DNA from: Flaviaesturariibacter aridisoli
GTDB lineage: Bacteria; Bacteroidota; Bacteroidia; Chitinophagales; Chitinophagaceae
Assembly: GCF_004343705.1 (NCBI RefSeq)
Contig: NZ_SKFH01000029.1
Location: 1-64,000 of the forward strand
DNA: 64,000 nucleotides
Direction of reading: 5' to 3'
Part shown: in pieces, positions 8,513 through 13,229 of the stretch
Numbering within the stretch: position 1 is the first letter of the stretch
How the letters are laid out: every line of letters begins with the position of its first letter
Translations under genes and position numbers: made by a program
The notes under the pieces: model-generated
Seen by the model: the letters and a program-made list of their open reading frames with translations, nothing else
Database searches by the model: none
What the model was told of the DNA's origin: nothing

Positions 8513-8657
8513 ATTCGTATCGTTTAATGAACCTTTTTATTTCCGAAAAACCGTTCCGGTCGCAACTGTATAGACCGTAGCTTGGCGGCAGCCAAAAACC
8601 TTGTACAAACACGGATCCACGGAAGGGTCTGTGCGCGGTTTTTGCTACACTGATCCT

Positions 8658-9089
8658 ATGAGGCATTCATTTTTATATCGCACGACGCTGCTGGCCCTGC
8701 TGATGGGCCTTGGATTTTCCTGTAAAAAAAGCGACGCGACCGAAGGTCCCGTCAACGTGGGCGGCTACCTTGAATCGGGTAACTGGCGTGTGAGCTCGTT
8801 TAGGGACAGCGGCCAGGATGAGACCGCCCACTTTTCGGGCTATACGTTCACCTTCGCGGCCAACGGCGCCGTGGTAGCGACCAATACCGTCACCACGGCC
8901 ACCGGCTACTGGGGTTCGGGTATCGACGACGGCGTGTCTAAAGTGCACCTCTTTTTCCAGACCCCGCCCGACTTCCAGGACCTCAACGACGACTGGGACG
9001 TCCGCAACGCGTCCGTGACGCGCATCGAGCTCGCCGACAGCAGCGGCGGCGGGAGCGGCGTGGATGTGCTGGTGCTGGAGCGGGATTGA
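8658..9089 (+). CDS. Small lipoprotein, lipocalin-like size, function unknown
   Basis: 143 aa from the ATG at 8658, which gives a lipoprotein signal (LLALLMGLGFSCKK, Cys about 18); the longer frame from 8601 would bury it. The mature part (ESGNWRVSSF, FSGYTFTFAANGAVVATN, GYWG, FQDLNDDWDV) resembles small extracytoplasmic beta-barrel proteins that Bacteroidota carry in many copies, but no family can be named with certainty. Its TGA stop is the first three bases of the left inverted repeat of the DUF559 cassette. Confidence 0.75.
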   Translation: MRHSFLYRTTLLALLMGLGFSCKKSDATEGPVNVGGYLESGNWRVSSFRDSGQDETAHFSGYTFTFAANGAVVATNTVTTATGYWGSGIDDGVSKVHLFFQTPPDFQDLNDDWDVRNASVTRIELADSSGGGSGVDVLVLERD

Positions 9090-9123
9090 CCCACCCCCGG
9101 CCCCTCCCGAAGGGAGGGGTGCC
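9087..9123 (+). repeat. Left inverted repeat flanking the DUF559 gene
   Basis: 37-nt repeat that begins TGACCCACCCCCGG and contains an internal hairpin (CCCCTCCCGAAGGGAGGGG). The reverse complement occurs at 9698-9735 with two or three differences. The first TGA is the stop codon of the upstream lipoprotein. Confidence 0.9.
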
Positions 9124-9156
9124 CCTGCGGTAGATTACTACTGTGTCGATATGTAT

Positions 9157-9567
9157 TTAGGATTGTGGAGTGTGGGGGTTCAGGAGGTGTTTCGTTATTA
9201 CCTGAAGGACCTGGTGCATTCTCTGTAGCACTTCTTCATTCCTAAATCGGATGACGCGAAAGCCCAGTGCTTCGAGGTCGTCGGCCCGCTCTTTATCGCG
9301 TTCCATTTGTTCCAGTGTCAGGTGATAATCGCCATCAACCTCAATAATCAGGCGCCTGTCCAGGCAAACGAAGTCAACGATATACCGGTCGATAATAAAT
9401 TGCCGGCGGAATGCGCAGCCGCAGATCTTATTGCCTTTTAGTTTCTGCCAAAGCGCTCGTTCTGCCTTGGTTGGTCCTTGCCGATGTTGTTGGGCGAAGG
9501 ATAATCTTCCGACAAATTGGCTCGCGCTTGCATGATAATAGCCATGACGCTTTTTTGGTGCTTCCAT
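9157..9567 (-). CDS. DUF559 endonuclease-fold protein
   Basis: 136 aa using the ATG at 9565-9567 (MEAPKKRHGYY); a frame extension to 9660 exists but is not family-like. It shows the DUF559 pattern of the very-short-patch-repair/restriction endonuclease fold: PTKAERALWQKL, FRRQFIIDRYIVDFVC, LIIEVDGDYH (Glu-x-Asp metal site), ERDKERADDLEALGFRVIRFRNEEVL. DUF559 proteins are often alone and lack a known partner. Here the gene sits inside a pair of 37-nt inverted repeats between two convergent genes, which suggests the gene and repeats travel as one unit. Confidence 0.88.
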   Translation of the reverse strand: MEAPKKRHGYYHASASQFVGRLSFAQQHRQGPTKAERALWQKLKGNKICGCAFRRQFIIDRYIVDFVCLDRRLIIEVDGDYHLTLEQMERDKERADDLEALGFRVIRFRNEEVLQRMHQVLQVITKHLLNPHTPQS

Positions 9568-9697
9568 ACCACCAAATAAGCGCGGCGCAATGGTACATCC
9601 CGGTGAAAAAGACCAGGCAAACGATGTTTTTTCAACCCTTGGAGCCGGTGTTTTCACCAATGAAAACGGTCACCTGGAAGTAGGAATACACCACGGA

Positions 9698-9735
9698 GGC
9701 ACCCCTCCCCCTCGGGAGGGGCCGGGGGTGGGTCA
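9698..9735 (+). repeat. Right inverted repeat flanking the DUF559 gene
   Basis: Reverse complement of the 9087-9123 repeat (GGCACCCCTCCCCCTCGGG, then GGCCGGGGGTGGGTCA). Its outer TCA is the TGA stop codon of the minus-strand outer membrane gene. The internal hairpin may also work as a terminator. Confidence 0.9.
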
Positions 9736-10488
9736 GAGCTTCACCGAAAACCCCAGCGCCACGAAATTCACCGGTGCCGCGCTCGTGAGACCCGCGCCGG
9801 TGGAGAGGTCTACTTTTCCCTTTTTGCCGATGAAGTAGGAAAGGCCCGCATCCACGCTGTGCTCGGGGAGGGCGCCGCCCTGCACAAAGCCGTACACTTC
9901 GGCGAAGGCTTCCCAGTGCTTGCCCAGCGTCACTTCGGGCGAGAGGGTGTACAGCCACTGCGGCTTCGTGTCTTCACCGCTCCATTCGGCGCCGATGTTG
10001 TAGTTGAGGCGCCATTGCTGGTTGATCTCGTTTTCGAGCAGCAGGCGGATGCGCGGCTCGGCGTAGGTGGGACGAAAGGCTTCCGAAGCAAATTTCGGGA
10101 TGCCCACCTGTGTGTACAGCGCCGCTTCGGGGAGGAGCCCTTTGCCTTTCCAGAGGCCGGCTTTGAAGCCCAGCTCGATGGGACGGAGGCCCGTCTCGGT
10201 CCTGCCGCCGTCGCGGTGCCGCTCGGTGAGGGGCTGCACTTCGGCGCGCAGCTCGAAGCCTTCGAGCAGGCCATAGCGCAGCACGGTGCGCGGCTCGAAG
10301 TAGTCGACGGTTTCGGGATCGGCCACTTCGCGGCGCAGGCCCAGCTCGATCTGGAAGGCGTGGCGGTCCACGGTTTGCGCCGACTGCGATTCGCTCGGAC
10401 GGTCGGCTTCGAGGTGCTCGTCATCCTGCGCGGTGGCCTGCAAGGTGGTCAGCAGGCAAACGATGGGTATAAATATCCGGGGGCGCAT
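9733..10488 (-). CDS. Outer membrane beta-barrel protein, phenol-degradation MetA-like transporter family
   Basis: 251 aa from the ATG at 10488, chosen because it begins a signal peptide (MRPRIFIPIV ... ATAQ); an alternative ATG lies at 10521. The mature chain begins LEADRPSESQSAQTV and alternates short polar and hydrophobic strands (RTVLRYGLLEGFELRAEVQP, GFKAGLWKG, IGAEWSG, VDAGLSYFIG), ending FVALGFSVKL with a hydrophobic C-terminal strand. This is the pattern of the MetA-pathway putative transporter family. Ligand unknown. It is divergent from the GT39 gene (short intergenic gap). Confidence 0.78.
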   Translation of the reverse strand: MRPRIFIPIVCLLTTLQATAQDDEHLEADRPSESQSAQTVDRHAFQIELGLRREVADPETVDYFEPRTVLRYGLLEGFELRAEVQPLTERHRDGGRTETGLRPIELGFKAGLWKGKGLLPEAALYTQVGIPKFASEAFRPTYAEPRIRLLLENEINQQWRLNYNIGAEWSGEDTKPQWLYTLSPEVTLGKHWEAFAEVYGFVQGGALPEHSVDAGLSYFIGKKGKVDLSTGAGLTSAAPVNFVALGFSVKL

Positions 10489-10524
10489 AGGCGTGTTTCC
10501 CCGGTCACACACTAATTTCATTCC

Positions 10525-12018
10525 ATGCTTCCTACCGGCTATGCGCGCAAAGCGCTGGCAATGATCCTGGTCCTGGCGCTGTTTCGTCTCTGGCTGGCCT
10601 TCGGGCTCGAGCTGGGCAACGACGAATCGTACTACTGGATGTACAGCCGCCAGCTGAAGCCCAATTATTTCGATCACCCGCCGATGGTGGCCCTGCTGAT
10701 CCGGCTGTGCACCTTCAACGGCTGGCTGCAGTCGCCGGGGGCGCTGCGGCTGGGTGCCGTGCTCAGTGCGGCGGGAGCTGCCTGGCTCTTGTTCCAGGCC
10801 GTGCGCACGCTTCACAGCGCCCGCGCCGGCTTCTACGCCTCGGTGCTCTACCAGGCCTCCTTTTATGCCGGCGTCACCGCCGGTGTATACATCATGCCCG
10901 ACTCGCCGCAGATGCTGTTCTGGACCGGCGCCTTGTGGATGCTCGCGCGCATTTTGCGCAACGAGCGCGACTGGAACAACTGGCTCCTCTTTGCCGTGCT
11001 TGCCGGCGCCTCCATCATGAGCAAAGTACACGGCGCTTTTCTCTGCAGCGGCCTCGCGCTCTTCGTGCTGTTCCACCGCCGCTCCTGGCTGCGCCTCCCG
11101 CAGCTGTATGTCGCTGCGGCCCTCGTGCTGCTCATCGCCAGCCCCATCCTGGCCTGGAACATCCGCAACGATTTCATCACCTACCGCTTTCACAGCCGCC
11201 GCGTGGCGGTGGATCATTTCAACCTGCGCTTCTCCTATGCGTTGAAAGAAGCCATCGGGCAGCTCGTATTCAACAACCCGGTCAACGTGGTGCTGGTGAT
11301 CGGGGCGCTGCTGCATTGGAAGGCGCTCCCGTCCGAAAGCCGCAGCCGGCTCCCATTGTTCAACTGGATCGCGCTGCCCCATGCGGGCTTCCTGCTGTTC
11401 GTGGCCCTCTTCCGCGACACCACGCTGCCGCACTGGAGCGGGCCGGCCTATGTAACGCTGCTGCCGCTGGCCGCCGCCCGCCTCGCCGAAGGGCCACGCC
11501 GCCGCTTCCTGCCCCGCGCGGTGGTGGGCGCTGCCACTACCTATGTGCTTACCCTCTTTGCCTGGATGGCCGTCGTGCAGCATTACCCCGGAACCTACGG
11601 CAGCAAAGACCCGAAAACCCTCGGAACCGGCGACATCTCACTCGATCTCTATGGCTGGCAGGAAGCAAGTGTTGCCTTCAACCGGCTGTACGAGCAGGAG
11701 CTGCGGGCGGGCCGTATTTCTACGGGCACACCCATCGTCGCTTCCTACTGGTGGGGCGCCCACGTGGAGTATTATTTCTGCCGTCCCAACGCCATTCCCT
11801 TCCGCGCGGTGGGGCCGGTGCGCGATATCCGCGAATACTACTGGCGCCCCGAAAGCAGCGGCCCCTTGCCGGCGGCCGCCTTCTGCATCCTCGCCTCCGA
11901 CGAGCACTATGAATTACCGTTGGAAGGGTTCTCCCAAAAGAAGATCGCCTACCGGATCACCGTCACCCGCAGCGGTAAGCCGGCCCATACGTTTGTGGTG
12001 TGGAAGCTTTTCCGGTAG
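10525..12018 (+). CDS. GT39 (ArnT/PMT-like) integral membrane glycosyltransferase
   Basis: 497 aa, about 10-12 transmembrane helices. The N-terminal loop holds the family-39 signature: GNDESYYWMYSR (acidic pair in the first loop) and FDHPPMVALLIR. Such enzymes transfer a sugar from a polyprenyl-phosphate donor to protein or lipid A at the outer face of the inner membrane. The C-terminal globular part (about 370-497) is periplasmic by analogy. Acceptor unknown. No cell-wall cluster surrounds it. Start ATG is 37 nt from the divergent gene's start. Confidence 0.88.
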   Translation: MLPTGYARKALAMILVLALFRLWLAFGLELGNDESYYWMYSRQLKPNYFDHPPMVALLIRLCTFNGWLQSPGALRLGAVLSAAGAAWLLFQAVRTLHSARAGFYASVLYQASFYAGVTAGVYIMPDSPQMLFWTGALWMLARILRNERDWNNWLLFAVLAGASIMSKVHGAFLCSGLALFVLFHRRSWLRLPQLYVAAALVLLIASPILAWNIRNDFITYRFHSRRVAVDHFNLRFSYALKEAIGQLVFNNPVNVVLVIGALLHWKALPSESRSRLPLFNWIALPHAGFLLFVALFRDTTLPHWSGPAYVTLLPLAAARLAEGPRRRFLPRAVVGAATTYVLTLFAWMAVVQHYPGTYGSKDPKTLGTGDISLDLYGWQEASVAFNRLYEQELRAGRISTGTPIVASYWWGAHVEYYFCRPNAIPFRAVGPVRDIREYYWRPESSGPLPAAAFCILASDEHYELPLEGFSQKKIAYRITVTRSGKPAHTFVVWKLFR

Positions 12019-12943: not shown

Positions 12944-13229
12944 TCACAGTTTTGTGAGGAGGGCTGCGGGGCGGCGGAATGCCGGTCACAGTTTTGTTAA
13001 GGACATAGTTCCGTCGCCGGATGCCGGTCACAATTTTTCGAGTGCCGTGGATCGCTTGCCGAATGCCGCTCACAGTTTTGTGAGGGGCATGGATCGGCAC
13101 CGTGATGCCGGTCACAATTCTGTGAACACTATGGATCCTTTGCCGGATGCCTGTCACAGTTTTGTGAGTGGCGCAACCCGGTGGCGGAAGACCCCTCACA
13201 ATTTTGTGAGTACCCCGGTCGCATGCTGA
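12944..13229. repeat. Tandem repeat array, 42-bp period (about seven units)
   Basis: Units start at 12944, 12986, 13028, 13070, 13112, 13154 and 13196. Each begins with a near-palindrome TCACARTTTTGTGA and has a conserved end GGATGCCGG; the middle varies. Units differ by many substitutions but never by length, so period is kept at 42 (2 x 21). Both strands have an open frame over the array (heptad-patterned peptides such as HKTVTGI on the minus strand), so the reading direction is uncertain. The rest of this gene-free interval (12858-12943 and 13230-13445) holds nothing recognised. Confidence 0.9.

Follow-up and report, generated by a model that had tools for sequence, protein, structure and literature searches.

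In the window, the 64-kb stretch of DNA that was analyzed, a unit of 647 bp (positions 9088 to 9734) lies between two convergent genes. At either end stands GACCCACCCCCGG followed by a GC hairpin, the two copies being inverted relative to each other, and a single minus-strand gene encoding a DUF559 nuclease is located between them. The features of the locus are as follows.

8658..9089, plus strand: neighboring gene on the target side, which reads as a small lipoprotein of 143 aa without a Pfam match
9087..9089, plus strand: TGA stop codon of the lipoprotein gene, made with the GA end of the unit
9088..9119, plus strand: left arm, consisting of the end GA, the head CCCACCCCCGG and then the hairpin CCCCTCCC-GAA-GGGAGGGG (self-comparison; repeat core found genome-wide)
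9157..9567, minus strand: DUF559 nuclease gene, 136 aa from its ATG; a TTG at 9660 is the alternative start (Pfam PF04480, E 1e-33)
9702..9734, minus strand: right arm, an inverted copy with its head outward and a hairpin with a 4-nt loop (self-comparison)
9733..9735, minus strand: TGA stop codon of the outer membrane gene, made with the other end of the unit
9733..10530, minus strand: neighboring gene on the target side, a Phenol_MetA_deg-type outer membrane gene (Pfam), start uncertain

An earlier note on this DNA had described inverted repeats of 37 nt around the nuclease gene. They were recovered as 33 nt without gaps (9087-9119 and 9703-9735, 91% identity) or as 38 gapped columns (9087-9123 and 9698-9735, 94.7%). 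A search for CCCACCCCCGGCCCCTCCC with up to 3 mismatches returned two places only in the 64 kb, which were the two arms, whereas 0.01 would be expected by chance. Each arm contains an 8-bp GC stem, at 9101-9119 on the left (CCCCTCCC-GAA-GGGAGGGG) and at 9702-9721, with the 4-nt loop, on the right, in agreement with the hairpins noted before. The two further statements made at that time, that the outer ends of the repeats provide the stop codons of both neighbors and that the framed gene belongs to DUF559, also held: positions 9087-9089 and the complement of 9733-9735 both read TGA, and the Pfam match is the one given above. The extent proposed then, 9087-9735, described a real unit but requires trimming. 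The unit proper spans 9088-9734, because most other copies begin with GACC and have a T ahead of this only where a stop codon results. For the reading frame, 9157-9567 (ATG, 136 aa) is more probable than the version reaching up to 9660 (TTG, 167 aa), the start having been chosen by reading against the N termini of L032, L033, and L036.

The AlphaFold model of the window protein (pLDDT 78, with 80 residues at 90 or more) matched the folds of NGO0050 (Z 16.0), the homing endonuclease I-Bth0305I (Z 11.6 over 95 residues), and Vsr (Z 10.3); matches to TnsA (Z 7.0) and to Holliday resolvases (4.5 to 6.8) were too low to read. A sequence profile found NGO0050 at 2e-34 and I-Bth0305I (3r3p) at 4e-6. 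The fold predicted for DUF559 is that of Vsr and the homing endonucleases. Six residues (E67, D96, E107, D109, H113, and D122) were invariant in 40 DUF559 sequences, and they may correspond to the EDxHD motif. DUF559 is assigned to the EDxHD homing family in PMC9403480, and PMC3943268 concerns EDxHD enzymes. Values of dN/dS ranged from 0 to 0.25 in the 25 DUF559 pairs that gave a value, pairs which overlap, and internal stops were present in 4 of the 65 copies from relatives; judging by these sequences, DUF559 is under purifying selection. No Rfam match (structured RNA or intron) was obtained in window positions 8600-10600 or at four other loci, and no intein family appeared in the Pfam scans of the loci examined.

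Taken by itself, this protein could be an ordinary Vsr-like repair or defense gene of the host that lies by chance among terminator-like intergenic repeats. Such an origin, which we regard as very unlikely, would suit the Vsr-like fold and the weak PADLOC matches (HEase, 3e-5). It would also suit Caulobacter VsrA, a DUF559 protein that is linked to a cytosine methyltransferase and DNA damage in PMC12907096, and by analogy with which a host role for DUF559 is possible. The frequent position of the repeats 3' of stop codons and the existence of unpaired DUF559 loci, both described below, fit it as well.

The repeat is dispersed in the genome from which the window derives (4.37 Mb in 84 contigs). 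Its 19-nt core gave 42 matches with up to 3 mismatches, compared to 5 for the reversed pattern, and a degenerate pattern of three types gave 67 matches, compared to 1 for the control, so that the search for further copies suggested by the earlier note was positive. Types were distinguished by their heads, namely, T1 (CCTCAC), T2 (CCCAT), and T3 (CCCAC). Among the first 30 of the 42 copies, which were fetched and some of which are the two ends of one unit and hence nonindependent, 16 had an inverted partner (score of at least 14) within 700 bp downstream. This number falls to 15 without L006, which reached the score yet is an unrelated palindrome and was rejected as a repeat pair. None of the 30 had a partner upstream or further downstream. 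With partners downstream of 15 copies and upstream of none, the repeat is therefore polar, with its head outward.

Repeats free of DUF559, another point raised at the outset, exist both as lone copies and as gene-less inverted pairs. Six gene-less pairs of about 100 to 200 bp were found in the same genome (L002/L024, L007/L016, L011, L014/L015, L018, and L025), and the pairs of about 450 bp (L012/L029 and L028) are filled by tandem arrays, with no decayed DUF559 seen inside them. L028 is a T2 pair that encloses an array of GCCGATTTTGTCAACGGCAT-like units. The array filling L012/L029 resembles one at 12944-13209 of the window, where five exact palindrome units (TCACA..TGTGA, 14 nt) are spaced at multiples of 42 bp. 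In the relative G010, 18 of the 19 fetched loci were gene-less units with both ends, 166 to 239 bp in length, 17 of them with T1 at both ends, and none of these 18 copies showed a target-site duplication. By eye, the G010 loci (L253-L271) form a gene-less family of about 216 bp in which many members have a central terminator-like hairpin, and these units might serve as terminators between genes. When the repeat ends of the window's genome and G010 were considered together, GA preceded 42 of 65, and the stop of an open reading frame of at least 80 codons was close to 38 of 65, with TGA exactly at the border in 15 of those 38. A GTAG- or CGTC-like word occurred by either end in 6 of 30 repeat copies, at no common place.

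To quantify how regularly such repeats frame DUF559 genes, pairing was defined as an inverted match between the two flanks with a score of at least 14, and flanks shifted outward by 600 bp served as the control. Five of the six DUF559 genes in the window's genome lie within inverted pairs (scores of 49, 37, 32, 26, and 15), and the remaining one, L031, scores 11. Paired loci amounted to 43 of 65 in relatives (shifted control, 0 of 59), 58 of 78 in the named-genome set, which holds the best 80 of 530 relatives minus two duplicates (0 of 74), and 27 of 60 in a Bacteroidota-wide draw (1 of 57). The duplicates were L120 and L121, the same loci as L097 and L038; keeping both among these best 80 of 530 gives 60 of 80 and 0 of 76. 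Conversely, 22 of 65, 20 of 78 (best 80 of 530), and 33 of 60 DUF559 loci fell under the threshold. The 65 loci of relatives omit the weakest, mostly partial matches, among them L061-L065, and include L040 and L093, which are two domains of one leucyl-tRNA synthetase (LeuRS). L045 and L177 refer to a single locus, which is included in the relatives set, the named set, and the repeat-type tree. The draw covers 60 of 106 places, mostly the stronger matches, and nine places from G000 (the window's genome), G003, and G030 were not reused. In a weaker control, the left flank of one locus was compared with the right flank of another, and many of the loci thus combined share repeat types; a score of 14 was reached by about 5% of the combinations in relatives, 18% in the named set, and 2.7% in the draw. 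For relatives, the mismatched-flank scores had a 95th percentile of 14, a 99th percentile of 22, and a maximum of 82, and 27 of the 65 real loci reach 22.

Outside Bacteroidota, 8 of 39 matches in a plasmid collection were fetched, and 4 of these 8 reached a score of 14 (Pseudanabaena, 61; Sphingomonas, 26; Azospirillum, 25; Deinococcus, 20), with Synechocystis (10), Escherichia coli (L294, 10), Sinorhizobium (9), and Photobacterium (8) below it. A phage collection yielded 2 weak DUF559 matches, and a first scan of contigs with one protein as the query found no relative. Repeats at four deltaproteobacterial or Desulfobacterota loci (L156, L160, L184, and L185) appeared by eye to be oriented with the hairpin outward, near the DUF559 domain, the reverse of most Bacteroidota; a few Bacteroidota loci (L046 and L087) also have the hairpin outside by eye.

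The outer membrane gene next to the unit was sought in 58 genomes, the window's own included, and matched in 18. Seven of its 19 places were read closely, and in three of the seven, one being that of the window's genome, it adjoins the lipoprotein gene. In G010 (L068), a member of the same genus, four genes follow the order of the window, the outer two being a hydrolase and a glycosyltransferase-like gene by reading, and the stops of the lipoprotein gene (TAA) and the outer membrane gene (TAG) are 2 bp apart. In G016 (L067), also of the same genus, only the two genes matched; here, too, the stops are TAA and TAG, and they share 2 nt. Neither the repeat nor the nuclease is present at either junction, which is near zero in length in these two relatives compared to 647 bp in the window, and both stop codons differ. 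The earlier proposal of a cassette of about 650 bp at the junction of convergent genes is supported by these empty junctions, which lack repeat and gene alike. Relatives that kept the same stops without a repeat would have spoken against it; theirs are TAA and TAG, whereas both in the window are TGA. From this comparison, insertion in the window's lineage rather than precise loss in the relatives appears to be the simplest reading.

The cassette idea proved sound but too narrow, as the family also includes in-frame copies in housekeeping genes. The DUF559 domain was found within an open frame longer than 800 nt at 26 of 65 loci in relatives, 41 of 78 in the named set (best 80 of 530), and 17 of 60 in the draw; 16, 28 (from the same best 80 of 530), and 6 of these, respectively, scored at least 14. 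Inverted hairpins are translated on both sides of the in-frame domain, as in LTPGPSPKERG...SPLLWRGAGGEV of the LeuRS at L039. Nine of 10 hosts passed NCBIfam cutoffs (AroC, MetH twice, GMK, IspF, ArgB, IleRS, MiaB, and adenine deaminase), and a CCA-transferase-like host remained under its cutoff. DUF559 is located inside the enzyme in six of the nine passing hosts and beside it in GMK, IspF, and ArgB. In the latter three and in SpoU, where the nuclease is wholly N-terminal, two genes may share one open frame. The LeuRS host of Parafilimonas terrae (L177) was assigned by family model (939 versus 548 bits), as were tryptophan dioxygenase, IspG/GcpE, MetH, an M23 peptidase, a DEAD-box helicase (RecQ by reading), a MeaB/methylmalonyl-CoA-mutase protein, and a SpoU methylase. 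CinA, HsdR, HemE, and others were recognized as hosts by reading of the sequence. The window copy itself is intergenic, and the in-frame habit belongs to the family.

One strong LeuRS match was obtained in each of the 58 genomes (two in G028), and a LeuRS with an insert is therefore generally the sole LeuRS. An alignment of 27 LeuRS sequences, including 8 whose DUF559 domain had already been recognized, showed two loops with the unit. At residue 304, 7 sequences contain the unit and 2 a short insert derived from the repeat, and all others lack both. At residue 538, L212 and L093 have the full unit, L101 has a repeat pair with no gene, and L044 has a half. One LeuRS loop shows three states: empty, repeat-only, and full. 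In tryptophan dioxygenase and the M23 peptidase, the insert replaces a loop of about 20 residues of the relatives, with some alignment rows unanchored. The AlphaFold model of LeuRS with its insert (L177) had a pLDDT of 44, too low to interpret. Near residue 639, the LeuRS of L200 (G000:C1:97351-101200) and L204 (G001) carries an insert of about 100 residues (EHLLW...PIDFI...VAIEV), for which there was no Pfam match. It reads like another PD-(D/E)XK nuclease, and a second, different nuclease may be lodged in LeuRS.

These results bear on the view that DUF559 is a host gene found among terminators by chance. Against it stand the many in-frame copies within enzymes, where the inverted hairpins to either side are translated too, the empty alleles at the same site, and the gene-less pair in the same LeuRS loop as full units; copies of this kind are not terminators.

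Another candidate for the spread of the repeats is the RAYT-type transposase. Y1_Tnp genes occur in 42 of 58 genomes, including the repeat-rich ones (7 in G000, 4 in G010, and 3 in G016), and RAYTs that accompany REPs are a known precedent according to PMC3733652. RAYT (Y1) transposases, or recombination, could have spread the repeats, with DUF559 a passenger trapped between two copies. Of the 14 Y1_Tnp genes in the three repeat-rich genomes, 8 have an inverted pair (score of at least 14) of their own with another sequence, and none has T1-T3 repeats on both sides; a single T1 end is found about 250 bp to one side of L280. The presence of T1-T3 repeats was unrelated to that of Y1_Tnp (10 of 42 genomes with it versus 4 of 16 without, P = 1.0) but related to that of DUF559 (13 of 30 versus 1 of 28, P = 0.0005; with DUF559 at E of 1e-15 or less only, 12 of 24 versus 2 of 34, P = 0.0003), none of these values being corrected for phylogeny. 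In the phylum draw, T1 occurred in 11 of 49 genomes with DUF559 and 3 of 69 without (P = 0.004, likewise uncorrected for phylogeny); 3 of 14 T1-carrying genomes of the draw lacked DUF559 at E of 1e-15 or less. A trapped passenger would also hardly be expected in 45 to 74% of the DUF559 loci tested (best 80 of 530 in the named set included). RAYT was rejected as the owner of T1-T3 repeats on the framing and presence results, and we consider spread by RAYTs or recombination the least probable of the alternatives. The Y1_Tnp genes at L273, L275-L280, and L283 are framed by other inverted repeats, and RAYT-type and DUF559 systems share genomes.

The repeat type generally follows the DUF559 type. 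On a tree of 76 DUF559 domains (143 loci minus 43 scoring less than 14, 20 untyped, 2 of type T6, and 2 short), it required 25 changes compared to 42.9 after shuffling, and none of 200 shuffles was as low, a result to which near copies contribute. T2 considered alone showed no clustering, a value as low being reached in 76 of 500 shuffles. In G010, 17 fetched gene-less units have T1 at both ends, yet the single DUF559 gene found has T3 ends; the cognate link is therefore nonstrict, or the partner is absent from this 85%-complete genome.

A third alternative, which we judge unlikely, is homing only: DUF559 would cut the uninserted allele of one gene, repair would copy the unit, and the hairpins would be passengers acting in transcription end or homology. 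I-Bth0305I is the nearest solved fold apart from NGO0050, several species carry DUF559 in the same loops of LeuRS, MetH, AroC, and M23 peptidase or on the N-terminal side of GMK, IspF, and ArgB, and the gene-less family lacks target duplication, as homing would have it. Pure homing does not, however, lead one to expect scattered gene-less pairs, with 18 places in G010 and several in the window's genome, nor a repeat type that travels with the DUF559 type on the tree. On a DUF559 tree labeled by host gene, host labels cluster (25 changes versus 48.8 shuffled), but few columns were available and only 11 of 105 inner branches were starred, a resolution too poor for counting the invasions per site or for showing repeated homing at one site.

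We propose that the unit is probably the enzyme-coding full form of a selfish, REPIN/RAYT-like family of palindromic repeats whose enzyme is a DUF559 homing-type nuclease (Vsr/EDxHD fold) in place of a Y1 transposase. The likeness to REPIN/RAYT lies in the polar hairpins, their pairing, and the presence of a resident enzyme; the enzyme type and the in-frame habit differ. The anatomy, the gene-less pairs, the absence at the same site in two relatives, and the placement at 3' ends or in frame were seen directly in the sequences, and the nuclease itself may mobilize or cut the repeat. In such a mechanism, the nuclease would recognize the head and hairpin of its own repeat, or else a nearby target, and would nick or cut there. 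Repair templated by another copy would then introduce either the full unit or a gene-less pair at the new site, the target not being duplicated. Units would persist where harm is small, either at stop codons, with TGA completed by the GA end, or in loops of enzymes, with the repeats read through as peptide.

More broadly, and with greater doubt than confidence, we suggest that these units could form a class of mobile DNA of wide distribution, its polar hairpin repeats and gene-less pairs being spread through bacterial genomes by a nuclease of the Vsr/homing type rather than by a transposase, an integrase, or a self-splicing element. Such a unit could live as a translated domain in essential enzymes such as LeuRS, and DUF559 would be the engine in several phyla. 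DUF559 is a common, large family whose role in the cell is unsettled, and its link to the repeats offers a testable engine for them. The copies read in frame in LeuRS, IleRS, chorismate synthase, and others suggest that a mobile unit can reside unspliced within housekeeping proteins, and they are natural tests of the tolerance of enzymes to added domains.

Literature searches, with subscription papers mostly beyond reach, found no report linking DUF559 to these repeats and no named owner of these GC hairpin repeats. Several known systems are comparable. MITEs and insertion sequence elements share the inverted terminal repeats and the short gene-less derivatives. In contrast to them, the DUF559 unit contains no transposase, has hairpin ends, and showed no target duplication among 18 gene-less copies in G010; at the window site, the relatives are too diverged to judge duplication. 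EDxHD or Vsr-like homing endonucleases such as I-Bth0305I are similar in fold, in catalytic-core sequence, and in lodging in conserved genes, whereas no intron or intein was found with the DUF559 unit, which is framed by dispersed hairpin repeats and often forms a translated domain within its host enzyme. Rickettsia palindromic elements (RPEs) are not known to encode an enzyme, whereas the DUF559 unit often carries the nuclease gene. The two are alike in being palindromic inserts read in frame within functional genes, 9 of 10 host frames of the DUF559 family having passed NCBIfam cutoffs; PMC3733652 describes RPEs in frame in genes that likely encode functional proteins. Closest is the REPIN/RAYT (TnpA-REP) system, with its short polar palindromes, inverted pairs, framed enzyme gene, and many gene-less copies, often at gene ends. 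In REPs, one end carries a GTAG or CGTC tag, according to PMC3733652, whereas the DUF559 repeats have no such common tag. The enzyme in the window is DUF559 and not a Y1/HUH transposase (Pfam PF01797), the seven Y1_Tnp genes of its genome being located elsewhere. Unlike REPINs, DUF559 units also occur in frame in housekeeping genes, and the two systems coexist in one genome with different repeats.
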